DNA from: an uncultured Halieaceae bacterium
GTDB lineage: Bacteria > Pseudomonadota > Gammaproteobacteria > Pseudomonadales > Halieaceae
Length of the DNA: 64,000 bases
Assembly (NCBI GenBank): GCA_913057135.1
Contig: CAJXNM010000009.1
Span: 1 to 64,000, forward strand
Direction of reading: 5' to 3'
Of the stretch, positions 36,286-63,326 are shown in pieces (position 1 is the first letter of the stretch; every line of letters begins with the position of its first letter). The position numbers were made by a program, and so were the translations under genes. Below the pieces are notes generated by a model. It did not search any database. It worked only from the letters and a program-made list of their open reading frames with translations, and was not told the origin of the DNA.

Positions 36286-36300
36286 GTCTGGACTCCTCTC

Positions 36301-37827: not shown

Positions 37828-37884
37828 CGTGGTGTCCTCGGACTTTATTTTAGACGGCAAGTATTACTGCGAATCGAGGAGAAA

Positions 37885-42787: not shown

Positions 42788-42823
42788 CCGTCCTACCGGA
42801 TATTGACTTACTCGCTAGTAAGC

Positions 42824-42836
42824 GTAACGTGTTACC
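42824..42836 (-). promoter_or_regulatory. Palindromic operator candidate, site C (receptor 2)
   Basis: Read on the minus strand it is GGTAACACGTTAC, matching sites A and B over 12 positions. It lies 80 bp before the receptor 2 start. Confidence 0.6.
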
Positions 42837-42915
42837 TAGATCGTTTGTTCGGGTTTTGTCCTCCCGACACATGTTGACGTTCGCAAAAAAAATATATTCC
42901 CAACGGAGCCACATC

Positions 42916-45327: not shown

Positions 45328-45388
45328 TGATTGGGCTAGTTAAGGGCCCTTCAACCGGACCGCTATATTATGGTGCTTCAATTTCAAG

Positions 45389-45411
45389 CCGGGCCACGTG
45401 CCCGGTTTTTT
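45389..45411 (+). terminator. Rho-independent terminator of receptor 2
   Basis: CCGGGC (45389-45394) pairs with GCCCGG (45400-45405), then six T. It ends one base before the sulfatase start codon, so the sulfatase either reads through or has its own promoter nearby. Confidence 0.8.
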
Positions 45412-47157
45412 ATGATGACGGTTGTACACAACGTAGTCATTGGAGCGCGGCTCCTTGCATTGGTGGTCACTACGCTAATGGTTGGTTGCGGCGGTTATGA
45501 GGGCGATACAGAAAATGACGGTGGCGCGATGCATGCTCGGGCGCAGTCATCTATCGGTACCCAGCGACCGAATATTTTGCTTATCGTGGTCGACGATATG
45601 GGGTACACGGATCTTGGAAGCTTTGGCGGTGAAATTCCGACGCCAAACTTAGACGAGTTGGCGAAGGCGGGTACACGTTTTACCGATTTTCAGGTTTTGC
45701 CAGCATGTTCACCGACCCGGGCCACCCTATTGACGGGTTTGGAACCCCATGCTGTCGGTTTTGGTTCGCTCGCAGAGGAGTTGGCACCCAATCAACAGGG
45801 AGCCCCTGCCTACACGGGTGTTTTACCAGTCAGCGCAACCACGTTACCGCGACTACTGCAGTTTGCTGGCTATCGTACTTATATGGCTGGTAAGTGGCAT
45901 TTGGGTTACGAGGCTGGTCGTGGCCCAGCATTCTTTGGATTTGACCGCTCTGTAGCCCTAATGGACGGCGGCGCTAGCCATTTTCCCGATATGAAACCCG
46001 CCTACGCAAAAGATCCGAGTGCTATAGCCGCTTATACCATCGACGACCAAATCATCGACACCGCGCCTGAAAATTTCTCTTACTCGAGCCAATATTATGC
46101 GGATGAACTGCTTCGCTTCATTCGCGAAGGGCTTGATTCAGCGGGTAGTGATCCAGTTCCGCCTTTTTTTGGTTACTTATCCTTTACTGCGCCCCACTGG
46201 CCACTACAAGCCCCCCGAGAGAGTATCGCGCGCTTCGAAGGACGCTACGTCGATGGCTACGAAAAGCTACGTGAGCAGCGTTTAGAGGGGCTCAAGCAGC
46301 TAGGGGTGATTTCAGACACCGATGTACTCTCGCCGTTGCCCCCCAAGGTCCGCCCGTGGTCGTCACTAACCCCGACGGAAAAAAAACGAGAAGCGAGAGC
46401 AATGGCGGTATATGCCGCTATGGTGAGTGAGGTTGACCATCATGTAGGTAGGATCATTAACTATCTCAAGCAGACAGGTCAGTTTGACAATACCGCCATT
46501 GTCTTTTTCTCAGACAATGGCCCAGAGGGGCATGACCTAGACGAAACATGGCCTGCGGACTTGTTCCCTCAAATTCGTGCCGTCATCGATGAGCGCTTTG
46601 ATCATTCGACGGGTCGTATGGGGTTGCCGGGCTCTTACACGCTATATGGTGCTGGTTGGGCACACGCAGGATCGCCACATTTACGCTTGTACAAGGGATT
46701 CCCCACAGAAGGAGGAACCAGGGTTGCAGCGTTCGTTACCTTGCCTGGTAACACCCCACAAGTGCAATGGCTCGATCAGCAGGTAAGTGTTCGCGATATT
46801 ATGCCCACGCTGTTGTCGCTGGCGCAGGCACCAGTGCCAGCTTCACTGCAAGCGACTTTGGCCGGTGAGTCGTTAATTTCACGGATTTTGGGTGGATCAC
46901 CAGATACACCTCCACCCGCTTTGGTCATCGAGTTTCTAGGTAAGCAGGCAGTTAAACAGGGCCACTGGAAATTGGTTAAGCTGCCGCCGCCCTATGGCAA
47001 CGATAAGTTCTCACTTTATGATTTGCGCAAGGATCTGGGGGAGCGTGACGATGTATCTGCACAGTTTCCCAAAAAAACCGCCGAGCTCATCGCTGCTTAT
47101 TCACACTATGCTGCGTCCTATGGGGTCATTGAGCCCAGCTGGGTGAGCGGTTATTGA
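45412..47157 (+). CDS. Type I sulfatase, predicted lipoprotein
   Basis: 581 residues. The signature CSPTRATLLTG gives Cys99 as the residue converted to formylglycine. NILLIVVDDMGY supplies the metal Asp pair, and GKWHLG and FFSDNGPEGHD are other active-site motifs. A lipobox (VGC, Cys26) predicts membrane anchoring; the start is ATG 45412 or 45415, since sequence before it is the terminator hairpin. It probably removes sulfate from an aryl or alkyl ester in the periplasm. It converges on paaX with a 7-bp overlap. A formylglycine-generating enzyme was not seen in the window. Confidence 0.9.
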   Translation: MMTVVHNVVIGARLLALVVTTLMVGCGGYEGDTENDGGAMHARAQSSIGTQRPNILLIVVDDMGYTDLGSFGGEIPTPNLDELAKAGTRFTDFQVLPACSPTRATLLTGLEPHAVGFGSLAEELAPNQQGAPAYTGVLPVSATTLPRLLQFAGYRTYMAGKWHLGYEAGRGPAFFGFDRSVALMDGGASHFPDMKPAYAKDPSAIAAYTIDDQIIDTAPENFSYSSQYYADELLRFIREGLDSAGSDPVPPFFGYLSFTAPHWPLQAPRESIARFEGRYVDGYEKLREQRLEGLKQLGVISDTDVLSPLPPKVRPWSSLTPTEKKREARAMAVYAAMVSEVDHHVGRIINYLKQTGQFDNTAIVFFSDNGPEGHDLDETWPADLFPQIRAVIDERFDHSTGRMGLPGSYTLYGAGWAHAGSPHLRLYKGFPTEGGTRVAAFVTLPGNTPQVQWLDQQVSVRDIMPTLLSLAQAPVPASLQATLAGESLISRILGGSPDTPPPALVIEFLGKQAVKQGHWKLVKLPPPYGNDKFSLYDLRKDLGERDDVSAQFPKKTAELIAAYSHYAASYGVIEPSWVSGY

Positions 47158-48083
47158 ACCACATCGAACCCACCGAATCGCTCGAAGAACGCGGCGCTCG
47201 GCCCCGGCAAGCGACCTTGTTGTGCTTGTAGCGACTCTTCTATGTAGGCAAGTGAGGGTGGCGCCAAGGACTTGTACAGGGATGCGACCATTTGGTGTGC
47301 CAGCGTTCCCTGCCAGCGATTAGGTAGTAAATCGTCCGGTAGTGGTGTATCCCGTAATAGGATGCGGCGGTAGTCATGAATAAGAAGTAACCGAGCATGA
47401 AGTGCTTCGATGGGCGTGGCTTGTTTACCCCGATCGATAGCTGTTTGTAACGGTTTGAAGCGCTTTATAAGAGATGCATATTCGTCTGCTAGTAGGCTGA
47501 GGTCCCAGCGGTCACTCACCGTCTGGCGTAACTGGCGCTTTAGTGTCATCGGCGACGTGCTTGCTTGCATGACAATGACACTATCGTGCAAATCAAACTC
47601 GTCCAATAGATCTTGAATCGCCACATCATCACTGCCGGGTCTGGCAAAGGCACCTGGAGTAAGTGCTCGAAATCCCAACCAATTTAAGCTGCGTCTCAGG
47701 TCTTCCCTTACGGACTCTTCAACGTCAACCAGTAGCAATATCTGCCAGTGGCCACGCCAGACATCGTTGCTGTGACTGTATATTCGTTCAGCGGCACGTT
47801 GGTATTGCAAGCTGCCGTGGGATGTAAACCGGTAAAAGCTTTTGCGACCCTCTCGCTCGACATCGAGCCAGTCCTCTTTTACCAAGCGGAATACCGAGGT
47901 ACGCACCAGTCGGTCATTGACCCCAAGTCCCTCAAGCGCATTTGCGATACTGCCGAGCCATATCTGCTTGCCGTGCTGTGACACGACATCACCAAAAAAA
48001 GTCACGATGAGCGACTTGGCGCGCATAGGCTTGCGCTCTCGAAACGCGTCAATGATGTCATTTAACTGTCGCGAAATCGTCAT
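47151..48083 (-). CDS. paaX: Phenylacetate pathway repressor PaaX
   Basis: 310-residue repressor, close to E. coli PaaX (about 316). The N terminus MRAKSLIVTFFGDVVSQHGKQ and LVRTSVFRLVKEDWLDVEREGRKSFYR make the winged helix; the PaaX-type C-terminal domain follows (HWQILLLVDVEESVREDLRRSL; LLLIHDYRRILLRDTPLP). It binds phenylacetyl-CoA and releases paa promoters in other bacteria. It is divergent from paaK, sharing a 123-bp region. Confidence 0.94.
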   Translation of the reverse strand: MTISRQLNDIIDAFRERKPMRAKSLIVTFFGDVVSQHGKQIWLGSIANALEGLGVNDRLVRTSVFRLVKEDWLDVEREGRKSFYRFTSHGSLQYQRAAERIYSHSNDVWRGHWQILLLVDVEESVREDLRRSLNWLGFRALTPGAFARPGSDDVAIQDLLDEFDLHDSVIVMQASTSPMTLKRQLRQTVSDRWDLSLLADEYASLIKRFKPLQTAIDRGKQATPIEALHARLLLIHDYRRILLRDTPLPDDLLPNRWQGTLAHQMVASLYKSLAPPSLAYIEESLQAQQGRLPGPSAAFFERFGGFDVVQ

Positions 48084-48206
48084 GGGCGGTGGCTCGGCAT
48101 AAGTGGATAACTACCTTATTTAATTGATACAAAAATCTTGAAATTTGGCCTTAAGCTGTATTACGTTAAGAGCATTCTTATAATCACATCCTAGACGGAA
48201 GTCATC
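48084..48206. promoter_or_regulatory. Divergent paaX-paaK promoter region
   Basis: TATAAT at 48179-48184 is a perfect -10 for paaK, about 23 bp before its GTG start. No clear -35 matches at 16-18 bp. TTACGTTAA (48161-48169) loosely resembles the GTAAC palindrome but is too degenerate to count as another site. Confidence 0.5.
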
Positions 48207-49499
48207 GTGACAAGCGAATTATTTTCATCACTGGCAGGTGTCCGCAAGGTCTCCCGCGATCAGCTAGACGATTTACAGCTATGCCGGTTACGCGAAACCC
48301 TAGAGCACGTGTACGCCAATTCAATCGTTTATCGGCAAAAATTCGATGCCGCCGGGGTGCATCCAAGTGACTTGGTTGCCTTGTCAGACATTGCCAAATT
48401 CCCGTTTACGACCAAAGAAGATCTCCGACAACACTATCCATTTGGACTGTTTTCGGTCCCGATGGAGCAGGTGGTACGCGTCCATGCGTCAAGTGGCACC
48501 ACGGGTAAACCGACAGTGGTCGGTTACACACGTGAAGATATCGATCACTGGGCTACCTGCGTGGCTAGATCCATTGAAGCCGCTGGCGGTCGCCCTGGAG
48601 ATCGGGTTCAGGTGGCCTACGGTTACGGGTTGTTCACGGGGGGGTTGGGCGCCCACTACGGCGCTGAAAAATTAGGATGTACAGTGATTCCGATGTCCGG
48701 TGGCCAAACCGAAAAACAGGTGCAGTTACTTCGGGACTTTGAGACTGACATCATTATGGTGACGCCGTCGTATATGCTCAACATCGCGGACGAGATGGAT
48801 CGACAGGGTTTGACACCCAGTGATCTCAAGTTGCGCACCGGGATCTTTGGGGCGGAACCATGGACTGATGCGATGCGAAGTGCCATCGAGGCGCGCTGCC
48901 AGATTGACGCCACCGATATTTATGGCTTGTCTGAGGTTATGGGTCCCGGGGTGGCACAAGAATTTGTTGAATCCAAGGATGGCCCCACTATTTGGGAGGA
49001 CCATTTCTATCCCGAGGTGATTGACCCAGAGACGGGCAAGGTGTTGCCTGAGGATGCCGAAGGTGAATTGGTTTTCACGAGCCTCACCAAGCGTGCTTTT
49101 CCGGTGATTCGATATCGCACCCGAGATCTCACTCGACTATTGCCCGGATCCCAGTGCGTCATGCGCCGTATCGCAAAGATCACCGGGCGGTCTGATGACA
49201 TGTTGATTGTTCGAGGCGTGAACGTATTCCCCTCGCAGATCGAAGAGCAGCTTCTCAAGTTCAGTGCGCTGTCTCCCCACTATCGAATTGAGCTCTATAA
49301 GCAGGGCAACATGGACTCAGTCACGATTCATCTCGAACCAGCCGAGGGTATCGGTGCCGATAAGGCTGCCGCTGCCGGTAAGGAATTAAGCGCTCTGATC
49401 AAGTCTTTTATCGGAATCAGCGCGGCCATTAAGTTACACCCGGTGGGAGGAATACCACGCTCGGAAGGCAAGGCTAAGCGAGTGATTGACAAACGTTAA
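48207..49499 (+). CDS. paaK: Phenylacetate-CoA ligase
   Basis: 430-residue AMP-forming ligase, first step of the phenylacetyl-CoA route. VHASSGTTGKPTVVGYT is the P-loop, DIYGLSEVMGPGVAQE the A5 motif, and VIRYRTRDLT with GRSDDMLIVRGVNVFPSQIE the C-terminal PaaK-type region. Translation begins at GTG, with GGAAG upstream. It is placed apart from the main paa operon, beside paaX and TonB receptor 3. Confidence 0.95.
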   Translation: MTSELFSSLAGVRKVSRDQLDDLQLCRLRETLEHVYANSIVYRQKFDAAGVHPSDLVALSDIAKFPFTTKEDLRQHYPFGLFSVPMEQVVRVHASSGTTGKPTVVGYTREDIDHWATCVARSIEAAGGRPGDRVQVAYGYGLFTGGLGAHYGAEKLGCTVIPMSGGQTEKQVQLLRDFETDIIMVTPSYMLNIADEMDRQGLTPSDLKLRTGIFGAEPWTDAMRSAIEARCQIDATDIYGLSEVMGPGVAQEFVESKDGPTIWEDHFYPEVIDPETGKVLPEDAEGELVFTSLTKRAFPVIRYRTRDLTRLLPGSQCVMRRIAKITGRSDDMLIVRGVNVFPSQIEEQLLKFSALSPHYRIELYKQGNMDSVTIHLEPAEGIGADKAAAAGKELSALIKSFIGISAAIKLHPVGGIPRSEGKAKRVIDKR

Positions 49500-49603
49500 A
49501 CACCGAAGCCAACCGGTGAGCGGTTCTTTGTTGGCAATACGTAATAAAAAGTCGGCCCTTCGTCGATGGATAAAACTATTTCACATCCACTCAGGAGAAA
49601 ACA

Positions 49604-51904
49604 ATGCAACGAGGTCAAAAAACACTGATCAGCGGCTGTAAGAGTGCGCTGGCGGTCCTCACAGGAACTGCAACCATAGGTTTACTGCCTGCCACATCTG
49701 CAGTGGCACAAGGCGGACAGTTGGAGGAAGTGATCGTCACATCCAACTACCGAGAGGAGAACCTGCAAGATGTTGCCGTTGCCGTGAGCGCGATTAGCGG
49801 CGATGAATTGAATGATGCCCAGATTTTCGGTCCCACCGAAATAGCACTCCGAGTGCCGGGAATGGCGTATGCAGAATTTGCCCCCGGACAAGCGATTATT
49901 TCTATGCGCGGTGTCAGTTCCGCTGATGACGGCGCGGGGATGGATAATTCGGTTGTTATGTTTTTGGACGGGGTCTATGTCGGCTCCCTCGCATCCATCA
50001 GTCAAGAAATGTTTGATGTGGAGCGCATCGAAGTATTGCGGGGGCCGCAGGGTACCCTGTTTGGGCGTAATGCGATCGGTGGAGCTATCAGCGTTAGTAC
50101 CTTGAAGCCCTCTCAGGAAACCAACATCCGCGCCGAAGCATCGATCGGTAACGAGGGCAACTTGCGTTACCAAGGTCTTATCTCCGGTGGGCTCACTGAT
50201 ACCTTGTCAGGTAAGCTGGTTTACAACCATCGAGAGCACGATGGCTATGTCGAGAATATTATCCTAGGCATCGATCAGCAGGACGAGGACATTACCTCCT
50301 ACCGTGGCCAATTACGTCTTGAACTCGACAACATGGATTGGTTGCTCTCAGCCGATTACATGGAAGATGAGCGTCAAGACATGGGGCGGGTGCCTATTTT
50401 CGGCAATGGCCGCGACACAGTGGAACGCTATGAAGCCTGGGGTGGGGATTTCCGCAAGGTGGCTGCTCCCGCCGGTACCACTGCAGAAGGTGGCGGTTCC
50501 TATCGTGAAACCTCAGGCGTAAGTCTGCAGGGCGATATCATGCTCGATGGCGGCACGTTCACAACGATTACTGCAATGCGCAATGCTAAAACTGATTGGG
50601 GCATGGCCTCTATTGGTGTCGGTATTCCGGTCGAAATCCTTGATGATATTGTGCAAGACATCGATACGCTTACCCAGGAATTTCGCTGGACGTCAGACCT
50701 TAGCGGCAATTTTAACTACGTCGCAGGTCTCTACTTCTTGCAGGAAGATACTGAACGCACCGAGCAATTCCGGTTGTTGATGCCCTTTGATACAACCGGT
50801 GCGATTTTCACAGATCCTGGGACGCAACAATGGGCACGAGCCAATGACATTGGTAATGAAGTCTCTTCTCAGGATAACTCTACGACCAGTTACGCCGCTT
50901 ATTTCCAAGGTGATTACGATCTCAGTGATGCCCTGACCTTGACTGTGGGTTTGCGCTACACCTACGACGAGAAAGAGACAACCTCGACGTCGGTTAACTG
51001 TGGTAACGCCGCTGGGCAGGACGGATATCCAGAGTACTGCACGGGTGTTGAGGGTTCACTGTCGATCATCCCAGAAACGTTTACGGTTACCGCGGAAGAC
51101 AGCTGGAGTGACGTCTCACCTAAGGCGGTACTGACTTACAACGCCAGTGACGATGTCATGTGGTACGGCAGTGTTAGTTGGGGCTTCAAAAGCGGTGGTT
51201 TTGGCGGCGCTCCCGGTACACCCGAGCAGGCGTCTACACCTGTCGATCCAGAGAATGTGGTCAACTACGAAGTTGGTATGAAGGGCGACTTCTTAAATCG
51301 CACCCTGCGTTTTAATGCGGCTGCGTTCTACATGGATTATACCGATCTGCAGGTCGTACGATTCGGCCCCACCCTCGACAATCCCAACTTCGGTCAATTT
51401 GTTACGGAAAACGCGGGTGAGGCGGAAATTACAGGTATTGAGACCGAGTTTACATGGGCGCCGAGTGACGTATTCCGTTTGAGTGGAACCTACGCTTGGC
51501 TCGATACATCCGTTAGTGATTTACTGATTAACGGTGTTGATCCCACACAGGTACCCGGCAACTCTGATGATTTGCGTCAAGCGCCAGAGAACAAATATTC
51601 ATTAACGGCGGTTTACGATATTCCTCTTAGTGGCGGCAGCATGATTTCACTGCGTGCTGACTATATGCATACGGATGAGCAGATTAACGATTATCTGAAT
51701 CAAAATACCATCATCGATGAATTTGATTTGGTGGATGCGCGTATGTCGTGGACATCGGCGGACAGCACCTGGACCGTGGCGCTCTGGGGTAAAAACCTGA
51801 CTGACGAAGAGTACATCTCACATAGCTACACGATTGGTCCCGGCGTGATCGGGACCTGGGGTGCTCCTCGGCTGTATGGTGCCTCGGTCACTTACGAAAT
51901 GTAA
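49604..51904 (+). CDS. TonB-dependent receptor 3
   Basis: 766-residue outer-membrane receptor. The signal peptide ends near SAVAQ (about 35); TonB box region LEEVIVTSNYREENLQDVAV, plug with RGVSSADDGAGMDNSVVMFLDG and RIEVLRGPQGTLFGRNAIGG, and a barrel ending LYGASVTYEM (terminal Met is unusual, most end in Phe or Trp). It lies between paaK and the penicillin G acylase gene, so a phenylacetyl conjugate is the suggested ligand. AGGAGA precedes the ATG. Confidence 0.93.
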   Translation: MQRGQKTLISGCKSALAVLTGTATIGLLPATSAVAQGGQLEEVIVTSNYREENLQDVAVAVSAISGDELNDAQIFGPTEIALRVPGMAYAEFAPGQAIISMRGVSSADDGAGMDNSVVMFLDGVYVGSLASISQEMFDVERIEVLRGPQGTLFGRNAIGGAISVSTLKPSQETNIRAEASIGNEGNLRYQGLISGGLTDTLSGKLVYNHREHDGYVENIILGIDQQDEDITSYRGQLRLELDNMDWLLSADYMEDERQDMGRVPIFGNGRDTVERYEAWGGDFRKVAAPAGTTAEGGGSYRETSGVSLQGDIMLDGGTFTTITAMRNAKTDWGMASIGVGIPVEILDDIVQDIDTLTQEFRWTSDLSGNFNYVAGLYFLQEDTERTEQFRLLMPFDTTGAIFTDPGTQQWARANDIGNEVSSQDNSTTSYAAYFQGDYDLSDALTLTVGLRYTYDEKETTSTSVNCGNAAGQDGYPEYCTGVEGSLSIIPETFTVTAEDSWSDVSPKAVLTYNASDDVMWYGSVSWGFKSGGFGGAPGTPEQASTPVDPENVVNYEVGMKGDFLNRTLRFNAAAFYMDYTDLQVVRFGPTLDNPNFGQFVTENAGEAEITGIETEFTWAPSDVFRLSGTYAWLDTSVSDLLINGVDPTQVPGNSDDLRQAPENKYSLTAVYDIPLSGGSMISLRADYMHTDEQINDYLNQNTIIDEFDLVDARMSWTSADSTWTVALWGKNLTDEEYISHSYTIGPGVIGTWGAPRLYGASVTYEM

Positions 51905-51918
51905 TAAGGGTTGTTTCT

Positions 51919-51943
51919 GGGGCGCACTAGCGCCCCTTTTTTT
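51919..51943 (+). terminator. Rho-independent terminator of receptor 3
   Basis: GGGGCGC (51919-51925) and GCGCCCC (51930-51936) pair around a 4-base loop, followed by seven T. Confidence 0.88.
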
Positions 51944-52000
51944 AAATTGCTTCGTGGATTTGCCGAATACCGTTTTTTACCTTGATACGAGGGAATTGCA

Positions 52001-54604
52001 ATGATGTGTGACGTGATAGCGCGCTGTGGCCGCCAGATCGCACTGAGCTTGTTTGGGTGCCTGTCGGTACTGCTCGCGAGTTGTAGTGGCGACCCTGAGT
52101 CCGTCACCGGTGATACCGCCGTTTCACAAACCCCTCGTTCCGCTAACAAGGTGTTAACGGTCGAGCAATTGGATGCAACACCTCACGTCGATCGGCCGGT
52201 GGCGGTAACGATTTATCGCGATAAATACGGCACACCCCATGTGTTTGCGGATGATAATTACGCGGTTTATTTTGGCTACGGCTATGCGGTGGCAACTGAT
52301 CGTTTGTTCCAAATGGAAATGCTGAAGCGAACCGCTCAGGGTCGCGTCGCGGAGGCACTGGGCGATGACTATTTAGATCTTGATATCAAGATTCGGACTC
52401 AGTACGACCATCCGCTGGTGCGTGAGCAGGTTGATGCATTGTCACCCCGGGATCATGACATTCTTGCGGGTTATGCGGCGGGTATGAATACCCGCATTGC
52501 AGAGTTGCTGGCGGATGAGCAACCCGTCTTACCGAAGCCATTTTACGATTATGGTTTTGAGCCCAGCTATTGGTCAGCATCGGATGTGGCGGCGATTTTT
52601 GTTGGCTCCATTGCGCATCGCTATGCCGACTTCAATTCGGAGCGAGATAATTTGGTGTTTTTGCAGAGCATGCAGCGACGTCATGGGCCCGATATCGCGT
52701 GGGCGATATTTAATCAAAGCAAGTGGCTGCTCGACAATACCTCACCTACGACCGTTCCCCGGTCGGCGCCCGTCAACACGGCAACCCCTGAACGCCCCGA
52801 CTACTTACCCCAATTGCCCACGAGCACCGGCGTTGCGCATCTGTTATTTGATGATAACGGTCGATTTGCAGGCTTAAGCGACGATACGGCGGGGCGTGGG
52901 TTATTTGCTCAGTTTGTCGCCAGTCGTGGCTTTGATAGCCACCCAGAATTTATGCCCGCCAGTAATTTTTGGGCCATGACCGCCTTAAGTGACGCCAATG
53001 CTGCACTGCTTAATGGCCCACAATTCGGCTTTGGCACGCCGAGTTATGTCTATGGCATTGGATTGCACGGTGGTGATTTCAATGTCGTCGGTAATACGCT
53101 GTTGGCGCTGCCTAGCTTGTTGTTTGCCCATAACAATGAATTGGCTTGGGGCAGTACCGCCGGTATCTCGGATCAAACGGATGAATTCTGGTTGCAACTC
53201 AATCCGGATAACCCTGAACAATACCGTTACCTAGGTGAGTGGCGGGATTTTGAGCGGTGGTCAGAAAATATAGCCCGGAGAGATGCAGATCCCATCACAG
53301 TGACTGCGCGACGCGCTGCTCAGGGGATGGTACAAGCGGTTGATGTGGATCGAGGGGTCGCCTGGGTGCGAGCTCGAGCGTGGGAAGGGAAGGCTGTCGA
53401 TGACTTAATGGCTTGGATTTGGTTATCTACGGATCAGTCACTCGCTGCCGCTGAAGCTCGAATCGCGGGTAAAGCCACCAATATCAACATGTACACCATG
53501 GATAAAACGGGAAACCTGGGATATGTGCACAGTGGCAAGTATCCGCATCGGGCTCCCAGTCATGATCCGCGATTGCCGGCCCCGGGAGATGGCAGCCAGG
53601 ATTGGTTAGGGCTGCGCGATTACAGCGACAATCCAAAGATGCGTGACCACCAGCAGGGCTATGTGGTTAATTGGAATAACCGCCCAGCGGCTGATTGGGT
53701 TAGTTCAGACCTGTGGAGTTACACCTGGTCACGTGCAGATCGAATGCACATTCTTTTGGACGAGCTGCGATCCATGAAGGGTGGATCGGTCGATGACCTT
53801 GTAGCGATTAATACACGTAGTACTTTTGAAGATGTGAACTATCGTTATTTGCTACCACCACTTCTGGAGGCGGTGGAGGAGTCGCCTTTGACCTCTGCCC
53901 ATCGGGAGGCGCTGGATTTGCTTGTTGATTGGGACAAGTCTTGGGTTGCCGACAGCGCAGGGAACTATGGTCCAGCCAATGCGATCATGGAAGCTTGGGT
54001 GCGAAACTTACATCGCCATGTGTTTCTTGATGATGTCGGGGAGGACAGCTTTCATTGGTTTGCTGCGACTAACTATCCCAATCAGACACTCGGAGCATCC
54101 TTAGGCACGCCTGTAGGGGTTCGCGTTTTGACGCATCTTATGGATCAGATCGATGCTCAGGAATCGCCTGCCTACGACTTCTTTAATGGAGAGTCACCGG
54201 GACAGGCATTGCTTGTCAGTTTTGTTGCTGCTGTTGATCAGTTAAAGAGTACTCAGGGCGACGCTATCAAGACATGGCGCTTGACAGCGGCTCCCATGCA
54301 GTGGCTACCCGTGAACTTCCGTGGTGTCCCTCAGGCCAGTGAAAATAATACTTTTTCGACCATGAGTTACCAGAATCGCGGGACTGAAAACAATGTCTTT
54401 GTGGCGACTGGCGAGGGTATTGTAGGCCGCGATGTGATTCCACCGGGCCAGGGTGGCCATTTTAACGCCGATGGTAGCCCAGGAGCCCATTTCGATGATC
54501 AATTCGAGCTTTACAACACCTTCGGATACAAGTCGCTGCCGTTTACTGAGTACGAAGTAAAGGCTGCGGCGGCAACGGTTGTGGATATTGCGATCAGTCC
54601 GTAG
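52001..54604 (+). CDS. Penicillin G acylase, predicted lipoprotein
   Basis: 867-residue N-terminal-nucleophile hydrolase; E. coli penicillin G acylase is about 846. The precursor holds an alpha chain, a spacer, and a beta chain that should begin at Ser321 in PASNFWAM. The phenylacetyl pocket of the E. coli enzyme is kept: an A-H-R-Y stretch (Arg207, Tyr208) for alpha Arg145-Phe146, GPQFGF for beta Phe24, GSTAG for beta Ala69, and NWNNRP for beta Asn241. The signal ends in a lipobox (LASC, Cys28), so it is probably membrane-anchored, unlike the soluble E. coli protein. It should release phenylacetate from amides. It converges on the amidase gene with an 11-bp overlap. Confidence 0.93.
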
Positions 54605-56054
54605 CCTCAATTGACTCCGCCGGCGTGCGTATAAGCAGTGTCTCTATGGCTTTGGCTATGGCTAGTAACTGACGATCGGAGCCCTGTGGACCATCGAGTT
54701 CAATACCCATTGGTAGACCATTGGGGCGCATGCCGGTTGGTAGGCTAATGCCTGGAATACCTGCGTTGCTTCCGGGGTCGGTATTTCTGATGTAAGTGGC
54801 AAAGGTTGATACCCCTCGACCATTGAGGGCAACGGTGTTGAGGTCGGCGTTGATGGGGCTAGCTTGCAGTGGTGTAGTAGGGAACAGCATTGCAGCAACG
54901 TTATGGCTGTCGAAATAGTTGGCGTAAGCGCTCTGTAGCGCGCGACGTTGCTCGCCAACTGCGCGGCGGTAGCTGGATTCGTCAATAACACCATCCAGTG
55001 CGCTGCCGACCACCTCGGCCACATCGGGGCTCGCGATGCTCTGGCGTAGGGCTGTTATCGACACGCTCGGCACATAGTCGGCCAAGTAACGTCGCAATAG
55101 TTGATTGGTCTCGTATAAAACCACTGGGAAGCTCACCGCGGAGTTTAAGGCGTCAATGTTTTCGAAATCAGCATTGACCAATTCGACTCCAGCCTCCTCT
55201 AGGCGGCTCAAAACATGGGCCATTGTGTCCGCAACTGGCGGAGCCAGATCATCATAAAAATAGTGTCGTGATATACCGAGCCTTAGCCCCTTGAGGCTGA
55301 CTGGCTCGAGCTTGGAGACGGGCTCGCCAGCGAGAATATTGTCAAGCAGTGCTGCGCTAGTGACGTTTTTCGCGATCGGTCCCGCGGTATCTCTGGTAGT
55401 TGAGATAAGTGTCATGCCGTCGTTGGGGTATCGGCCGGTTGTTGGCCGAAAACCCACCACGCCATTTAGTGCGGCAGGAATCCGCACCGAGCCACCCGTA
55501 TCCGTGCCAATGCCAGCATCGACAATCCCCAGTGCTACAGCAACCGCTGTACCGCCGCTGCTGCCGCCCGCAATCATTTTTGCGTTAGTTGCATTGGTCA
55601 CCGCGCCATAGGCTCCATTGGCGCTAGTGATGCCGTAAGCAAGTTCATGCATATTGTTTTTACCAGCGATCACGGCCCCAGCCTCCCGGATCCGGGTGAT
55701 GATGGTGGCATCCTCTGATGGAATGAATCGGTCTAGCGCCGGCGTGCCTGCCGTATTGGGTAGCCCTGCCACATGTATGTTGTCCTTGATGCTTACACGC
55801 ATCCCTGTGAGTGCTCCCGAACCTGTTGCGGGCAGTTCAGCAAAGGTGATGAAACTACGGTTGGCTTCGTCATTATCTTGCCCGGGTTCAACGTGACGAT
55901 AGCCCGGTTGGCTCACACTGATTTGTTCTGTCACGGGATTGGACAGTGTTGTCTGGTTCGTCGTATCGGGACAAGCGACTAGAGTGGCCAGCAGGCAGCT
56001 GACAGCGGTTCCTCGGAGCATGGGAGTGTAGTACTGAGCTATACGGTCGAACAT
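54594..56054 (-). CDS. Amidase-signature enzyme, predicted lipoprotein
   Basis: 486 residues. The Ser-cisSer-Lys triad is intact: Lys90 in VSIKDN, Ser165 in AGGSSGG and Ser189 in [12 protein letters not shown] lipobox (LVAC, Cys28) predicts a membrane-anchored periplasmic enzyme. ATG 56054 with AGGAGA upstream is chosen over the in-frame codon at 56087. Substrate may be aryl-acid amides, given the adjoining acylase and paa genes; the family is broad. Confidence 0.9.
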
Positions 56055-56172
56055 GACGATATCTCCTGTATTTTTTGTTATTCGCAAGGCTGAACCATGA
56101 CCTATTGGCGAGCCACAATCAATTGCACAGGAGCGAGCAATATCGCTTCAAAAAATATTACAATTGTTTTTG

Positions 56173-56204
56173 ATTTTGGAAAAGTTGTGTATCATATTGG
56201 AAAA
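56173..56204 (+). repeat. Direct repeat before the paaZ operon
   Basis: ATTTTGGAAAA (56173-56183) and ATATTGGAAAA (56194-56204) are one mismatch apart and exactly 21 bp (two helix turns) between starts. ATTGTTTT (56163-56170) and AAAACAAT (56201-56208) form an outer inverted pair. Candidate PaaX or other regulator site, 30 bp before paaZ; TATCAT between the repeats could be the -10. Confidence 0.5.
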
Positions 56205-56233
56205 CAATAAGGCATCAGTCTGCGGGAGTTTTC

Positions 56234-58276
56234 ATGAAGCTACAGAGTTACATTGCCGGTGCTTGGGTCGAGGGCGCAGGTCAAGGCAGGCAGGTTGTTG
56301 ATGCGGTTCATGGTGAGCCCGTGTGCACTGTTACTAGCGATGGCATCAACATGGCGGAAGCAGTGCGCTATGCACGGGACATAGGCGGCAGCGGCTTGCG
56401 TGCTATGACGTTTCACGAGCGTGCTGCGGCTTTGAAAGCCATTGCAAAGCACCTCATGGAAAAGAAGGAAGATTTTTATCAGCTGTCGTTCAAAACCGGT
56501 GCTACCCGAGCGGATTCCTGGCCCGATATTGAGGGCGGTATAGGGACCGTATTCAGCTATGCCAGTCTCGTTACCCGTGAGTTACCCAACGACGTGGTGC
56601 TGGTAGAAGGGGACATGGAGCGGCTGTCTCGAAATGGCAGCTTTGTTGGTCGTCATATTCTCACACCAAAGGTGGGTGTGGCGGTGCACATCAACGCCTA
56701 CAATTTCCCAGTCTGGGGTATGTTGGAAAAAATAGCGCCCAGCCTCGCTGCGGGTATGCCCGTTATCGTTAAGCCGGCTACACCTACGGCCTATCTCACC
56801 CAAGCGGTGGTCAAAGAAATGCTCAGTGTCGGTACGCTACCCGAGGGGGCTATTCAGCTCATATGCGGTAGTGCAGGGGATTTGCTCGACCATCTTAATG
56901 AGCAGGATGTCGTTACCTTTACCGGCTCGGCTAGTACCGGTCAGGCGCTGCGTAACCACCCTAATCTCATCGCTAACAGTGTGCCTTTCACGATGGAGGC
57001 GGATTCTTTGAACTGCGCCATTCTCGGTCAATCGGTGCGACCCGATGACGAGGAGTTCGCGCTTTTCATCAAGGAAGTTGCTAAGGAGATGACGTTCAAG
57101 GCGGGACAGAAATGTACTGCCATTCGTCGGATTATCGTGCCAGAGGAGTCTATTGATGCGGTCGTCGATGCATTGTCGGTACGACTGGCTAAGATGACTC
57201 TGGGGGATCCGACTCAGGAGGGCGTTCGTTTGGGGGCCTTGGTCAGTGCAGAGCAGGCTGATGATGTTCGCTCGAAGGTCGCTGAACTGACCTCCGAGGC
57301 GACGATCGCTTACGGTAGTGATCAGGCTATGCCGTTAGTGGGTTTGGAGAGTAATGCTGGCGCATTTTATCCGGCCACACTACTGCGTTGTGAGAATCCC
57401 CTTGAGGCCGAGAAAATCCACAGTGTTGAAGCCTTTGGTCCGGTAGCCACCGTCATGCCTTACAGTAACCTCGGAGATGCAGTGACGATCGCGCGCTTGG
57501 GTAAGGGCTCTCTGGTCGGCTCTGTCTACACTTATGACGATGTGGAGGCGCGAACGATTATTTTGGGCACTGCGCCGTGGCATGGTCGTATGTTGGTGCT
57601 CAATCGTGATTGTGCGGGCGAGTCTACAGGTCACGGCTCCCCGCTCGCGAATTTAGTGCATGGCGGCCCTGGTCGAGCGGGTGGTGGCGAGGAATTGGGC
57701 GGTGTACGTGCAATCAAACATTATATGCAGCGTACCGCTATCCAGGGCTCACCCACCACATTGATGGCTATAACAAACGAATATCATGCGGGTGCGCGCG
57801 AGAAGCACGACGTGGTGCATCCCTTCAAAAAATACTTCGAGCAGCTTGCTATTGGTGAAACGTTAGTCACCCATCGTCGAACGGTGACAGAGGCGGATAT
57901 CGTCAACTTTGGCTGTATCAGTGGCGACCATTTTTATGCGCATTTTGACGATATCGCGGCCAAAGACTCATTTTTTGGACAGCGTGTTGCGCATGGCTAT
58001 TTTGTGTTGTCGGCTGCTGCGGGCATGTTTGTTGACCCAAATCCTGGGCCGGTAATAGCTAACTACGGATTGGAAAACTTGCGTTTTGTTGAGCCGGTTC
58101 CTGCTGGAACAACCATCCAAGCCAAACTCACCGTTAAGCGCAAAATTAAGAAGGCCCGCCGCGGTGATGATAAGCCGAACGGCGTGGTGGTTTGGGCAGT
58201 CGAAGTGAGTAATCAAAATCAGGAATTGGTGGCGGTCTACGACATTCTGACGCTTGTCGAACGACAAGAGGACTGA
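56234..58276 (+). CDS. paaZ: Bifunctional oxepin-CoA hydrolase / semialdehyde dehydrogenase
   Basis: 680 residues, like E. coli PaaZ (681). The N-terminal aldehyde dehydrogenase domain (about 1-520) has [40 protein letters not shown] and [12 protein letters not shown] with the catalytic Cys. The C-terminal MaoC-type hydratase domain (about 540-675) has [17 protein letters not shown] with the Asp/His pair. It hydrolyses the oxepin ring and oxidises the resulting aldehyde. The stop overlaps the paaG start (TGATG). Confidence 0.96.
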
Positions 58277-59067
58277 TGGTGAGCTACGAGAGTATTTTAT
58301 TTGATGTTGAGGATAGCGTTGCGTGCTTGACGTTGAATCGCCCTGATAGCCTCAACAGCTTTACAGCCAGTATGCATGCCGAGGTTGCCGAGGTGCTCGG
58401 GCGTGCCGCCGAGGATGCGACGATCAGAGCTGTAGTGATTACAGGTGCGGGGCGAGGATTTTGTGCTGGTCAAGACCTCAACGATCGCAATGTCGCACCG
58501 GGTGAGCGTGTCGATTTAGGTGCATCGGTAGAGGCCTTTTATAATCCTCTCATACGTCGCATCACGTCGATGGAAAAGCCCGTCTTGTGCGCAGTCAACG
58601 GTGTTGCCGCCGGTGCCGGCGCTAACATTGCCTTAGCCTGTGATTTGGTATTCGCAGCGCGCTCCGCAAAGTTTGTCGAGTCATTTGCCATGTTGGGGCT
58701 CATACCCGATTCCGGTGGCACCTGGCACCTGCCGCGATTGGTGGGTATGGCTAGGGCAAAAGGGATGGCAATGCTCATGCCCAAAATTTCCGCCGATCAA
58801 GCGAAGGAGTGGGGTTTGATTTGGGAGGTCGTTGATGACGATGACCTAATGACCACCGTGATGGGCTTGGCCAGACACCTGGCGACCCAGCCAACCAAGG
58901 GGTTTGGGTACACCAAGCAGGCGTTTTCGGCGTCGATGACTAACTCCCTCGATGAGCAGCTGGAATTAGAGAAGGAGCTCATGCGAGTGGCGGGTTTTAC
59001 CGATGACTACGCTGAGGGGGTAAAGGCGTTTTTGGAAAAACGCCCCCCCGTTTATAAGGGGCGATAA
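58276..59067 (+). CDS. paaG: 1,2-epoxyphenylacetyl-CoA isomerase
   Basis: 263-residue crotonase-fold isomerase. TGAGRGFCAGQDLNDRNV, VNGVAAGAGANIALACD and LIPDSGGTWHLPRLVG match E. coli PaaG closely, including the Asp in the IPDSGG loop used as active acid/base. It turns the epoxide of phenylacetyl-CoA into oxepin-CoA. The stop overlaps paaI (TAATG). Confidence 0.95.
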   Translation: MVSYESILFDVEDSVACLTLNRPDSLNSFTASMHAEVAEVLGRAAEDATIRAVVITGAGRGFCAGQDLNDRNVAPGERVDLGASVEAFYNPLIRRITSMEKPVLCAVNGVAAGAGANIALACDLVFAARSAKFVESFAMLGLIPDSGGTWHLPRLVGMARAKGMAMLMPKISADQAKEWGLIWEVVDDDDLMTTVMGLARHLATQPTKGFGYTKQAFSASMTNSLDEQLELEKELMRVAGFTDDYAEGVKAFLEKRPPVYKGR

Positions 59068-59540
59068 TGAGTGACGCTCACCAAGACACGGCGGATGGTG
59101 TTAACGCTGATCGTATTGCCAAGGCTGCCGGTGATGCCATGTGGGCCGATGATCGCGCCACTCAGGGTATGGGTATGACACTGGTGTCGGTCACCGCGGG
59201 CCGCGCCGAAATCACGATGCCTGTCCGTGAAGATATGGTCAACGGTCACCAAATTTGTCACGGGGGGTTCATTTTTGCCCTTGCTGATAGTGCCTTCGCA
59301 TTCGCCTGCAATAGCCGCAATTTGGTCACCGTGGCTTCCGGAGCGCGAATCGACTTCCTGCGACCTGCAAAGCTAGGCGATGTCCTAACCGCTGTATCTT
59401 CGGCGGTGCATCAGGGCAAACGCACGGGTATTTATGATTCGGTGGTGACTAACCAGAAGGGCACTATCATCGCCCAATTCCGCGGTAATTCCGCCACCAT
59501 TGGCGGGGCACTGACCCACATTAAGGAGGAGCAGGCGTGA
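59067..59540 (+). CDS. paaI: PaaI hotdog-fold thioesterase
   Basis: 157-residue acyl-CoA thioesterase. VNGHQICHGGFIFALADSAFAFA is the PaaI hotdog motif with the catalytic Asp in LADS. It hydrolyses dead-end hydroxyphenylacetyl-CoA esters and returns CoA. It overlaps paaJ by GTGA. Confidence 0.94.
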   Translation: MSDAHQDTADGVNADRIAKAAGDAMWADDRATQGMGMTLVSVTAGRAEITMPVREDMVNGHQICHGGFIFALADSAFAFACNSRNLVTVASGARIDFLRPAKLGDVLTAVSSAVHQGKRTGIYDSVVTNQKGTIIAQFRGNSATIGGALTHIKEEQA

Positions 59541-60742
59541 GCAAGGTCTTCATCTGCGACGCGATTCGTACCCCTGTAGGCCGCTACGGTGGTAGTTTGT
59601 CCATGGTCCGAACTGATGACCTTGGCGCCATCCCGATGCGTGCACTGGTGGCACGCAATCCACAGGTTGACTGGAGTAAAGTTGACGATATTTGGTATGG
59701 CTGTGCCAACCAGGCGGGTGAAGATAATCGCAATGTCGGGCGAATGAGTGCGCTGCTAGCAGGGCTGCCTGAGTCTGTGCCTGCTGTTACTGTGAATCGG
59801 CTCTGCGGTTCTGGCATGGATGCAATTGGTTCGGCAGCCCGGGCGGTTAAGGCGGGTGAAATTGAATTGGCCATCGCCGGTGGTGTTGAATCCATGAGTC
59901 GAGCACCCTTTGTTTTTGGGAAAGGTAGCTCGGCTTTTGATCGCAATATCGAGACCTATGACACAACCATCGGTTGGCGCTTTATCAATCCTATGTTCAA
60001 GAAGCAGTGGGGCACTGACTCCATGCCTGAAACCGCAGAAAACGTCGCTGAACAGTTCGGTATTGAGCGTGCGGCGCAGGATGCCTTCGCTTTGCGCTCC
60101 CATGAGCGCGCGCTGGCAGCACAGGACGCCGGGTACCTCTCGGAGGAAATCACACCGGTTATGGTCCCCCAGCGAAAAGCAGATCCTATCTGTGTCGATA
60201 GCGATGAGGGACCTCGACGCGGCACTTCCTTAGACGTGCTTGGCAAGTTACCGACGCCTTTTCGTGAGGGGGGCAGTGTTACCGCGGGCAATGCATCCAG
60301 TGTCAATGATGGCGCCTGTGCGCTGTTGATTGCCTCAGAAGCCGCTGCCGACGCGCAGGGCCTGACGCCGAAGGCGCGGGTAGTGGCCATGGCGACTAGT
60401 GGGCTGGAGCCGAGGATTATGGGGTACGGTCCCTTTGAAGCAACCAACAAGGTCTTGCGGGTTGCGGGGCTGACGCTTGAGCAGATGGATGTCATTGAGC
60501 TCAATGAAGCGTTTGCAGCTCAGGGTTTGGCGGTTATGCGGGCCTTGGGATTACCCGACGACGCCGAGCATGTGAACCCCAACGGGGGTGCGATTTCTAT
60601 CGGCCATCCCTTGGGTATGAGCGGGGCCCGTTTAGTAACGACAGCTACGTATGAACTGCATCGTCGCGGTGGACGCTACGCGCTTTGCACGATGTGTATT
60701 GGGGTGGGGCAGGGTATCGCACTCATCATTGAGCGTGTCTGA
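59537..60742 (+). CDS. paaJ: 3-oxoadipyl-CoA/3-oxo-5,6-dehydrosuberyl-CoA thiolase
   Basis: 401-residue thiolase with the full catalytic set: Cys in NRLCGSG, His in [12 protein letters not shown], Cys in [10 protein letters not shown]. It starts at GTG, overlapping the paaI stop; AAGGAGG precedes it. It cleaves the beta-keto intermediates to acetyl-CoA and succinyl-CoA. In contrast to the protein at 29668, nothing is lost here. Confidence 0.94.
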
Positions 60743-60765
60743 TTAACAACTAACTTGCGTGGAGC

Positions 60766-61728
60766 ATGAACATGAATGACAACATTGTCGCACTGCCGAG
60801 TGAAGAGAAGTTTCAAGCCCGGATTGATGCTGAAGAAAAAATAGAGCCCAAGGACTGGATGCCGGAGAAGTATCGTCAAAATTTGATCCGACAAATTTCT
60901 CAGCATGCACATTCAGAGGTTATTGGTGAACAACCGGAAGGTAATTGGATTACCCGCGCGCCTACGCTAGAGCGTAAAGCCATTCTCTTGGCCAAAGTGC
61001 AAGATGAAGCTGGGCATGGTTTGTACCTATACTCAGCGGCAGAAACCCTTGGTATTACCCGTGAAGAAATGATTGATCGTCTGCACAAGGGAATAAGTAA
61101 ATACGCATCGATTTTTAACTATCCGTCCCTTACTTGGGCAGATATAGGCGCCATCGGTTGGCTGGTCGATAGTGCCGCTATTGTCAATCAGGTGTCTCTG
61201 CAGAATACCTCTTACGGTCCCTATGCCCGAGCCATGGTGCGCATCTGCAAAGAGGAAAGTTTTCATCAGCGTCAGGGCTACAACATTATGATGGTGTTGA
61301 TGCAGGGATCTGAAGAGCAGCGTGCAATGGCGCAAGACTCTCTCAATCGTTGGTGGTGGCCTGCTCTGATGATGTTTGGACCTCATGACGGTGAATCTGC
61401 GCACAGCGCTCAAAGCATGAAGTGGAAAATTAAGCGCCGTAGTAATGACGATTTGCGTCAGCAGTATGTTGATCAGGCGGTTCAGCAGGCTCATGCCATT
61501 GGTTTGGAAATCCCAGATCCGGATCTTAAATGGAACGAGGATCGTGGCCACTATGATTTTGGCGAAATTGATTGGGATGAGTTCGAGCGGGTGATTTCTG
61601 GTGATGGGCTCTGTAATCGTCAACGCATCGCGCACCATATAAAGGCCCACGAGGACGGTGCTTGGGTACGCGAAGCGATGGCAGCTTATGACAGCAAGCG
61701 TCGCGCTCGCGCGACCGATGTTGCCTGA
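60766..61728 (+). CDS. paaA: Phenylacetyl-CoA epoxidase, catalytic subunit A
   Basis: 320-residue di-iron subunit. [20 protein letters not shown] and [15 protein letters not shown] contain the E-x2-H motifs of bacterial multicomponent monooxygenase-type iron sites. PaaA epoxidises the ring with O2. Two Met codons 6 bp apart at the start; 60766 is chosen. It opens the paaA-E part, 23 bp after paaJ. Confidence 0.96.
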
Positions 61729-61753
61729 TTATTCTGCTACGGGACACGTATAA

Positions 61754-62038
61754 ATGTCAGATCATCTTCAGCTTTACGAAGTTTTTATTCGGTCACGTCG
61801 GGGCCTGGATCATAAGCACGTTGGTAGCTTACACGCAGACGACCCTGAGCAGGCCCTTGAGTACGCCCGAGACGTCTACACACGCCGAGGTGAGGGGGTC
61901 AGTATTTGGGTGGTTGCTTCCCGTGATATCACGGCCTCTCAAGAGTCAGATTGTGAGAGTTTCTATGACCCGCTAGATGATAAACCCTATCGGCATGCCG
62001 CCATGTACGAACTGCCAGAGGGGGTGGATAGTCTGTGA
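61754..62038 (+). CDS. paaB: Phenylacetyl-CoA epoxidase subunit B
   Basis: 94-residue subunit that bridges the epoxidase. YEVFIRSRRGLDHKHVGSLHADD and YTRRGEGVSIWVV are characteristic. It overlaps paaC at the stop (GTGA). Confidence 0.96.
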   Translation: MSDHLQLYEVFIRSRRGLDHKHVGSLHADDPEQALEYARDVYTRRGEGVSIWVVASRDITASQESDCESFYDPLDDKPYRHAAMYELPEGVDSL

Positions 62039-62793
62039 GCGATAATGCACACATTGCCAAATATGTACTGCGCTTGGCAGATGACGCCCTGGTACTTGGG
62101 CATCGATTGTCAGAATGGACCAGCCGAGCGCCGTTTTTGGAAGAGGATCTAGCCCTCACCAATGTGGCCCTCGATTTCGTTGGCCGTGCTCGGATGTACT
62201 ATCAATATGCCGCAGAGTTGACGGGTGGCGGTGCCACCGAAGATACCTTTGCTTACACCCGTGATGCGCGCGAATTCAGCAATTTGTTGCTGTGCGAATT
62301 ACCCCGCGGTGATTTTGCGTTTAGCGTTGTCCGCCAGTTTCTCTATGATGCTTTTGCCCTTCCGTTCCTGCGTGAGTTAAAGGGCAGTTCTGATCAAAGG
62401 CTGGCGGGTATTGCGGCAAAGGCCGAAAAAGAGAGCACGTACCATCTGCGACGAGGCAAAGAGTGGGTGCTGCGCTTGGGTGATGGGACTACCGAGAGTC
62501 ATCAGCGTATGCGTCAGGCCCTCGATGAATTGTGGGGTTACACCCATGAATTGTTTGAGGTTGATGCCCTAGAAGAAGCGTTGATTGCAGAGGGTATAGC
62601 GGTCGATCCGCGCACTATCCGAGATGAATGGCAGCAGACGGTGACGTCTGTTCTGATACAAGCGACTTTGCCTGTCCCGGAGTCCAGTTGGTCAGTACAG
62701 GGTGGCCGTACAGGTTATCACACCGAGAGTCTCGGCTACCTATTGGCAGAGCTGCAGTTCATGCAGCGCGCTTACCCCGGCTTACGTTGGTAA
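62035..62793 (+). CDS. paaC: Phenylacetyl-CoA epoxidase structural subunit C
   Basis: 252-residue ferritin-like subunit pairing with PaaA. YVLRLADDALVLGHRLSEWTSRAPFLEEDLAL and KAEKESTYHLRRGKEWVLRLGDG are typical of PaaC, which has lost the iron. Starts at GTG overlapping the paaB stop. Confidence 0.95.
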   Translation: MSDNAHIAKYVLRLADDALVLGHRLSEWTSRAPFLEEDLALTNVALDFVGRARMYYQYAAELTGGGATEDTFAYTRDAREFSNLLLCELPRGDFAFSVVRQFLYDAFALPFLRELKGSSDQRLAGIAAKAEKESTYHLRRGKEWVLRLGDGTTESHQRMRQALDELWGYTHELFEVDALEEALIAEGIAVDPRTIRDEWQQTVTSVLIQATLPVPESSWSVQGGRTGYHTESLGYLLAELQFMQRAYPGLRW

Positions 62794-62810
62794 GGCTTGA
62801 GGTTTTTGGC

Positions 62811-63326
62811 GTGCCAAACGCAGACCTGATTCCATTGTTACCCGAGGAGGAGCTTGCAAGGCGCACTCGCCGGGCAGAATCACCTCACCCAGAGCTCTGG
62901 TCTATTCTCGATGGGGTGATGGACCCAGAAATTCCCGTCATTACTCTGTACGAGCTCGGTGTTTTGCAGGATGTATACCTCGATGATGATGGCGTTCATT
63001 TGGTGATGACACCGACGTATATCGGTTGTCCTGCGATGGGTGTCATGGAAGAGGACGCACGAGCTGCTTTGGCTGCGGCAGGTTACACAACGGTGACCGT
63101 TGAGATGCGACTTGCGCCGGCTTGGACTACCGCATGGTTAACGCCTGAAAGCCGTCGTAAGATGGCTGAGTATGGTGTTGCCGCACCTTCGGGCGAGAAT
63201 ATTCAGTGCCCCCAGTGCCGCAGCGAAGCGGTCGTCATTATTAGCGAGTTCGGCTCCACTGCCTGCAAGGCCCTTTATCGCTGCCAGAGCTGTAGTGAAC
63301 CGTTTGATCTGTTTAAGGCGATCTAA
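62811..63326 (+). CDS. paaD: Phenylacetyl-CoA epoxidase assembly protein PaaD
   Basis: 171 residues. A DUF59/MIP18 domain with LDGVMDPEIPVITLYELGVL is followed by a zinc-binding tail, CPQC and CQSC. It is an iron-sulfur or di-iron maturation factor. The GTG at 62811 is preferred: the frame runs back to 62628, but that overlaps paaC. GAGG stands 9 bases upstream. Confidence 0.92.
   Translation: MPNADLIPLLPEEELARRTRRAESPHPELWSILDGVMDPEIPVITLYELGVLQDVYLDDDGVHLVMTPTYIGCPAMGVMEEDARAALAAAGYTTVTVEMRLAPAWTTAWLTPESRRKMAEYGVAAPSGENIQCPQCRSEAVVIISEFGSTACKALYRCQSCSEPFDLFKAI

Follow-up and report, generated by a model that had tools for sequence, protein, structure and literature searches.

We found that, in a 64,000-nucleotide stretch of DNA from an uncultured Halieaceae bacterium (contig CAJXNM010000009.1, positions 1 to 64,000; hereafter the window), a TonB-dependent receptor (TBDR3), a penicillin G acylase (PGA) and an amidase lie together inside the phenylacetate degradation (paa) cluster. 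This block is probably a PaaX-controlled system for the uptake and hydrolysis of phenylacetyl, or more broadly arylacetyl, amides. Our proposal draws on gene content, order and conservation, on operator-like sites, on lipoboxes and on one gene fusion, from which the ligand, the enzyme activities, the cell location and the binding of PaaX are predicted.

The three genes are flanked by PaaX and PaaK on one side and by PaaZ and PaaG on the other, all above their NCBIfam cut-offs. An earlier note on this DNA had placed them between paaK and paaZ, and Pfam and NCBIfam models back each of these calls together with the flanks. The note had also spoken of a whole Paa route. That description holds for PaaA, B, C, D, G, I, K, X and Z and for the 3-oxoadipyl-CoA thiolase (J), all found above cut-off in the window, and PaaE lies just past the window on the same contig (409 bits, cut-off 421), adjoined by an ActP-like symporter (740.6 bits, cut-off 750). 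The description is nearly but not fully borne out, as paaF and paaH were not seen in the cluster, the frames past the window being annotated in part.

Identity of the acylase, the amidase and the receptor

Among the solved structures of the PDB, those most similar to PGA are chains that bear the name penicillin G acylase, and PGA belongs to the PF01804 fold family by its Pfam match. Its Ser321 aligns with the first serine of the beta chain (beta-Ser1), as for an N-terminal nucleophile that follows a spacer. We compared the pocket using the numbering of the Kluyvera intermedia enzyme, at positions that we take to form the phenylacetyl pocket and the oxyanion site. Retained are beta-Ser1, Gln23, Phe24, Phe57, Ser67, Ala69, Trp154, Ile177, Asn241 and Arg263, as well as alpha-Arg145. 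From this alignment the phenylacetyl site appears largely conserved, with an altered rim. The earlier note had described the E. coli phenylacetyl pocket as kept, citing Arg207-Tyr208, GPQF, GSTAG and NWNN. All four are found in PGA, but at the first of these sites Arg-Phe stands in the Kluyvera reference and in every other enterobacterial PGA that we examined, so Arg-Tyr is a conservative change rather than a kept feature.

The nearest NCBIfam model for the amidase is that of indoleacetamide hydrolase (IaaH, NF005688), with 515.7 bits. Because this score is below the cut-off of 532, we label the amidase as IaaH-like only. Its Ser-cisSer-Lys motif was read by eye, as were the signal peptide and the TonB-box-like EEVIVT of TBDR3. 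A SusC/RagA identity of TBDR3 was rejected (TIGR04056, 50.7 bits, cut-off 368).

The block is conserved in Luminiphilus and recurs in other families

The nearest loci are Luminiphilus records, including L. syltensis NOR5-1B. All nine same-genus relatives with a PGA orthologue have the order paaX, paaK, TBDR3, PGA, (insert), amidase, paaZ, as far as their contigs reach. The stretch is complete in six of them (L034, L035, L037, L038, L039 and L040), and in the other three (L036, L042 and L043) a contig end interrupts it. One or two genes are inserted between PGA and the amidase in four of the six complete loci (L035, L037, L038 and L039). The insert includes a phenol-hydroxylase-type FAD monooxygenase in L037 (2928-7365), L038 (4001-8618) and L039 (7095-9017), with Pfam run on the L038 copy. 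In L037 and L038 it also holds a second TonB receptor with a PaaX-type site upstream.

Across 57 genomes of the genus, including that of the window, PGA and TBDR3 occurred together in nine and each alone in one (Fisher p 1e-8), and the same counts were obtained for PGA and the amidase (p 1e-8). PGA and PaaA were found together in nine, with PGA alone in one and PaaA alone in two (p 6e-8); these Fisher values ignore kinship. In the genome with PGA only (G003) the contig begins inside PGA, and in the one with TBDR3 only (G033) it stops 45 bases past the receptor. Two genomes, G015 and G031, have PaaA and none of PGA, TBDR3 and the amidase, and the paaK-paaZ gap of G031 is occupied by a different TonB receptor and a 95-residue frame. 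The cultured type strain L. syltensis has the block (L040, L059). Excerpts of PMC3679898 report paa genes and growth on L-phenylalanine for this species.

We then considered the best 80 of 587 confirmed PGA loci from public genomes, which are the closest relatives rather than a random draw and include the Luminiphilus records. Counting neighbours up to 10 kb away, we found one or more of eight paa markers in 26 loci, a TBDR3-type receptor in 22, an amidase of this type in 18 and both receptor and amidase in 17. In this set the trio recurs in other gammaproteobacterial families. The conserved neighbourhood that the earlier note had proposed to search for is thus kept in 9/9 Luminiphilus relatives and is found outside the genus. 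In Herbaspirillum, Collimonas, Zoogloea, Paraburkholderia, Variovorax and Amaricoccus (Beta- and Alphaproteobacteria), PGA lies near paa and the receptor is absent. Loci of this kind, without a TBDR3-type receptor, are L099, L102, L111, L112, L119, L123, L124, L127, L129 and L132, from Beta-, Alpha- and other Proteobacteria. No paa genes were found near the PGA loci of Achromobacter, Providencia and enterobacteria. In a class-wide sample, PGA matches at E<=1e-60 occurred in 4 of 370 genomes (that of the window included) and added few new loci.

None of 20 control PF01804 loci had a paa marker, a TBDR3-type receptor or the amidase. Since just 4 of these 20 lie in genomes with PaaA, we took 19 further PF01804 controls, all in PaaA genomes and several on short contigs, and again found none of the three. 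A generic linkage of any penicillin-acylase paralogue with paa was therefore rejected. A quickly built tree covered 78 of 81 PGA rows; long branches meet in it and its details are unsure. It places the receptor-linked PGAs in two groups that are separated from each other, and on 72 rows no fewer than 10 changes are required to explain the paa label. We also compared pairwise distances in 18 loci and then in 10 hand-picked representatives, with 2000 permutations. PGA and amidase distances correlate well (0.87 and 0.73, respectively; 0/2000 permutations as high in each case), and for receptor and PGA r was 0.60 in the 18 loci (0/2000).

PaaX-type operators accompany the cluster and receptor genes elsewhere

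Excerpts of PMC9493321 describe the E. coli PaaX operator as having TGATTC arms with N27 spacing. The two putative PaaX sites in the window keep this spacing and have TGATAC-like rather than TGATTC arms; the E. coli form TGATTC-N27-GAATCA had no match with at most one mismatch near the cluster. A perfect copy of the latter, perhaps there by chance, lies at 24590-24628; its neighbours are a divergent gene for an amino-acid ABC transporter and a gene that weakly resembles peptidase C25.

The TGATAC form was first spotted by eye in intergenic gaps and then scanned for. For this reason, only held-out loci and the scan of the own genome count as tests. A profile trained on 14 Luminiphilus sites from the two gaps was tested on 20 loci of other genera. 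Among 18 held-out TBDR3-type genes, which include the close relatives L062 and L063 and a receptor of genome G088 (score 13.1), 8 have an upstream site scoring at least 14 and 11 one scoring at least 11. The background at a score of at least 14 was 2/153 for other genes and 6/4620 for shuffled upstream regions. One of the two other genes, in L108, is AMP-ligase-like (by eye). The second is a fecI gene in G080 heading a fecI-fecR-receptor-receptor-PGA/amidase block. In that locus (L060, 3080-9870) the site before fecI scores 29.6, and a receptor with an STN domain precedes TBDR3 and the PGA/amidase gene, an arrangement suggestive of possible cell-surface signalling of an aromatic amide. We found no operator belonging to PGA itself, since none of 17 held-out PGA upstream regions reaches a score of 11.

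In the own genome, a sequence model built from the sites (R1) gave two matches at E<=1, both in the cluster (these are training sites; 150 of 244 first-look candidates were scored), and in G002 it gave one weak match outside the cluster. In nine receptor-linked loci, the stretch examined, which in several cases is short, is free of all eight paa markers. All nine of their genomes encode PaaX (eight above the curated cut-off) and PaaA elsewhere, against a background of 32/196 relatives with PaaA, own genome included. The region upstream of the receptor could be scored in seven of these loci, and in four of the seven (L095, L108, L113 and L121) it contains a site of at least 14. We also scored the sequence within 1.5 kb of paaX or paaA: the L069, L095, L107 and L121 genomes have sites of at least 19 there, the L064 and L066 genomes have weaker ones, and no site was found in the L108, L110 and L113 genomes. 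As a positive control, an E. coli pac gene has an N27 site with 2 mismatches 150 bases upstream of its start, a second such match lying elsewhere in the 20 kb, and an N27 site precedes PGA in four of eight other enterobacterial and Providencia loci. Phenylacetate-linked control of the cluster, and of receptor operons elsewhere, is addressed here by sequence only, through these PaaX-type operators.

Lipoboxes, a gene fusion and a conserved hairpin

Both hydrolases had been said to carry lipoboxes, and our reading of the window agrees with the pattern rule: LLASC in PGA (Cys28) and LVAC in the amidase (Cys28 when counted from the ATG at 56054). We called lipoboxes by a stricter and a looser pattern rule. 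With a fixed rule, 23 of 27 receptor-linked PGAs have a lipobox signal versus 4 of 54 others; the rows are related, the two receptor groups amount to few events, and some of the others are on contigs too short to reveal a receptor. By eye, three more of the 27 have a lipobox and only L069 is clearly without. The rule also calls a lipobox in the amidases of seven of the nine genus relatives. Together, this conservation supports lipid anchoring as a prediction. The residue that follows the lipobox cysteine differs between loci (it is Ser in the PGA of the window and Asp in that of one relative), so the anchor may be in either the outer or the inner membrane. The Marinobacter PGAs L126 and L128 have a lipobox and no detected receptor (L126 being on a short contig), and a PaaX-like site scoring 12.0 lies upstream of PGA in L126.

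In G080 (Halieaceae metagenome-assembled genome BB37), a single 1342-residue frame corresponds to the window PGA (residues 1-854) followed by the amidase (938-1341), whose own signal is absent.

A terminator-like hairpin was present in 23 of 26 gaps between TBDR and PGA from several families, versus 7 of 520 shuffled gaps, and the acylase follows at once; one further locus with a long gap was left out of this count. Partial termination at the hairpin may keep expression of the receptor above that of the acylase, or PGA may be transcribed from a start of its own. Bulk scans of 48000-56400 were uninformative, with 4 promoters found versus 8.5 expected and 6 terminators versus 7.8.

Proposed function and alternatives

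In the proposed scheme, TBDR3 would carry the amide over the outer membrane. The lipid-anchored PGA would then cleave N-substituted phenylacetyl amides, and the lipid-anchored IaaH-like amidase primary amides such as phenylacetamide. Released phenylacetate would cross the inner membrane, perhaps via the ActP-like symporter next to paaE, to be activated by PaaK and processed by PaaABCDE/G/Z/J. Phenylacetyl-CoA would free PaaX from both operators (paaX/paaK and amidase/paaZ), switching on the receptor, both hydrolases and the pathway.

Several observations weigh against this scheme. In the acylase pocket, alpha M142I and F146Y and beta V56L, F71I and F256Y are changed. Regarding control, 10 of the 18 held-out receptors have no site of at least 14 (two of these have a strong site leading the block, before the amidase in L045, 16.8, and before paaK in L131, 28.0), and in the window neither TBDR3 nor PGA is directly preceded by an operator, so that control would run via paaK. 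The positive control was missed in four of the eight enterobacterial and Providencia loci, and the hairpin speaks against assuming simple co-transcription of receptor and PGA. No lipobox was called in the L. syltensis amidase, and the PGA-amidase fusion comes from a single metagenome assembly of low coverage (4.8). Finally, receptor and PGA distances correlate weakly among the 10 representatives (r 0.35, 45/2000 permutations as high), so that receptors may be exchanged, and G088 (L136, 3253-10984) has a receptor with 61-63% identity to TBDR3 but no acylase close to it. This G088 receptor lies in another aromatic-degradation setting, beside an M24 peptidase/creatinase-type gene and, by eye, a Rieske-type oxygenase and a tryptophanase-like gene.

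The same machine could have a different main substrate: the acylase could release hydroxylated arylacetates, or others, from substrates such as 4-hydroxyphenylacetyl and 3,4-dihydroxyphenylacetyl amides, and so feed the Hpa meta-cleavage genes as much as Paa. HpaI/H/D/E-type genes serve the meta-cleavage of 3,4-dihydroxyphenylacetate. HpaE, HpaD and HpaH equivalogs above cut-off and an HpaI-like aldolase below it lie in the same window (33453-37860), HpaE- or HpaD-like genes (72-84% identity) are near the cluster in G007, G009 and G002, and an E. coli pac gene is about 4 kb from hpaBC. The F146Y and F256Y changes would bring polar groups into the pocket, and the phenol-hydroxylase-type gene stands between the amidase and PGA in some relatives. 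However, operators, trio and gene order follow paa and not hpa, and the trio loci of other families have no HpaD- or HpaH-like match, with just 31-33% aldehyde dehydrogenase matches in L064, L117 and L125. We therefore consider this substrate preference unlikely, though it is the strongest of the alternatives.

It is less likely still that TBDR3 is an unrelated siderophore or cofactor receptor, a bystander in a cluster where the acylase and the amidase alone serve phenylacetate metabolism. Halieaceae genomes have tens of TBDR candidates each (first-look), the solved structures matching TBDR3 are siderophore, heme and bacteriocin receptors, and a fecI-fecR pair precedes the receptors in G080. 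The weak co-divergence of receptor and PGA among the representatives points the same way, as do the distant TonB receptors inside five of the 19 PaaA-genome control loci (L204, L207, L210, L211 and L213). In contrast, the TBDR3 subfamily tracks PGA and not paa alone, G015 and G031 having paa and neither PGA nor TBDR3; it is found in 0/39 control acylase loci, and 8/18 held-out loci have the PaaX-type site upstream. Lastly, the acylase could serve quorum quenching, as an acyl-homoserine lactone (AHL) acylase, or beta-lactam turnover, phenylacetate release being incidental. An excerpt of the review PMC5474475 cites AHL degradation by Kluyvera PGA and deems an AHL role better conceivable than a beta-lactam one. 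We regard either role as very improbable given the conserved paa linkage with its PaaX-type operators, the phenylacetyl-type pocket and the poor similarity to PvdQ (47 bits, cut-off 950), on which a PvdQ-type identity of PGA was rejected.

Other features of the window

The coordinates of the cluster are given in the table. Beyond paaX, the stretch 42775-47157 encodes another TonB receptor together with a sulfatase whose signal contains a lipobox-like MVGC (by eye). This sulfatase recurs beyond paaX in G005, G002 and L. syltensis, and the orthologue of that receptor in G005 and L. syltensis.

Table. Features of the receptor-acylase-amidase block and of the surrounding paa cluster (window positions).
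Feature	Position	Strand	Evidence
paaX, phenylacetyl-CoA-responsive repressor	47151..48083	-	TIGR02277 280.6 bits, cut-off 264.55
Putative PaaX-type operator TGATAC-N27-GTATTA, paaX/paaK gap	48125..48163	.	arm scan; model R1 match (training site)
paaK, phenylacetate-CoA ligase	48207..49499	+	TIGR02155 666 bits, cut-off 646
TBDR3, TonB-dependent receptor	49604..51904	+	PF00593 and PF07715 above cut-off; orthologues at same position in relatives
Terminator-like hairpin with T-run, TBDR3/PGA gap	51919..51936	+	terminator scan
Penicillin G acylase (PGA) precursor, lipobox Cys28, N-terminal nucleophile Ser321	52001..54604	+	PF01804 369 bits
Amidase-signature hydrolase with lipobox	54594..56087 (likely ATG 56054)	-	PF01425 298.9 bits, cut-off 27
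Putative PaaX-type operator TATTAC-N27-GTATCA, divergent amidase/paaZ gap	56156..56194	.	arm scan; model R1
paaZ	56234..58276	+	TIGR02278 1035 bits
paaG, paaI, paaJ, paaA, paaB, paaC, paaD	58276..63326	+	NCBIfam models

Relation to known systems

The link between the acylase, PaaX and paa is already known. Excerpts of PMC9493321 state that PGA is thought to scavenge natural phenylacetate esters and amides, and they describe binding of the pga promoter by E. coli PaaX, which phenylacetyl-CoA inhibits (citing Galan 2004 and Kim 2004). The earlier note had credited the locus with giving penicillin acylase a natural role; our data support the scavenging reading, which is less new than implied since those excerpts already propose it. 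The block shares with E. coli pac/pga under PaaX the enzyme family, the core pocket and, in pac itself, an N27-spaced site. In contrast, the E. coli gene, in the record examined, is a lone gene near hpaBC, adjoined by neither a receptor nor an amidase. The stricter rule calls no lipobox in the enterobacterial PGAs that we examined, the looser one flagging Kluyvera L098. Similarly, the amidase has IaaH as its best NCBIfam model but falls just below cut-off, adds a lipobox-bearing export signal and is paa-linked.

Nutrient systems that combine a TonB receptor with surface lipoproteins are known from SusCD-like loci. As in these, the receptor gene here adjoins lipoprotein hydrolase genes in one block, but TBDR3 is not SusC, no SusD was seen among the annotated genes, and the substrate class would be aromatic amides and not glycans. 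Compared with paa clusters with PaaX, the locus keeps paaX, K, Z, G, I, J, A, B, C and D in order with PaaE and the symporter adjacent, and differs in having two hydrolases and an outer-membrane receptor built in. In the open-licence literature searched, we found neither a receptor, a lipid anchor, an amidase partner or shared PaaX-type sites for PGA, nor anything joining a TonB receptor, a penicillin acylase and paa; a term search of the main text of the paa-pathway papers PMC2653477, PMC13186573 and PMC4498308 gave no acylase or TonB.

PGA is of major importance to industry, and what it does in nature is still described as unclear. The receptor, the predicted lipid anchor, the second amide hydrolase, the gene fusion and the PaaX-type operators described here converge on one nutritional role, recurring in several bacterial families. 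We lean, by a modest margin of confidence, towards a new class of nutrient system in marine Gammaproteobacteria, in which a PaaX-controlled receptor and surface-facing lipoprotein PGA and amidase would act as one unit capturing and stripping phenylacetyl amides, and towards scavenging, not beta-lactam chemistry, as the main natural role of PGA. This would give a TonB-dependent receptor a predicted ligand class, and the role is testable in the cultured type strain L. syltensis.

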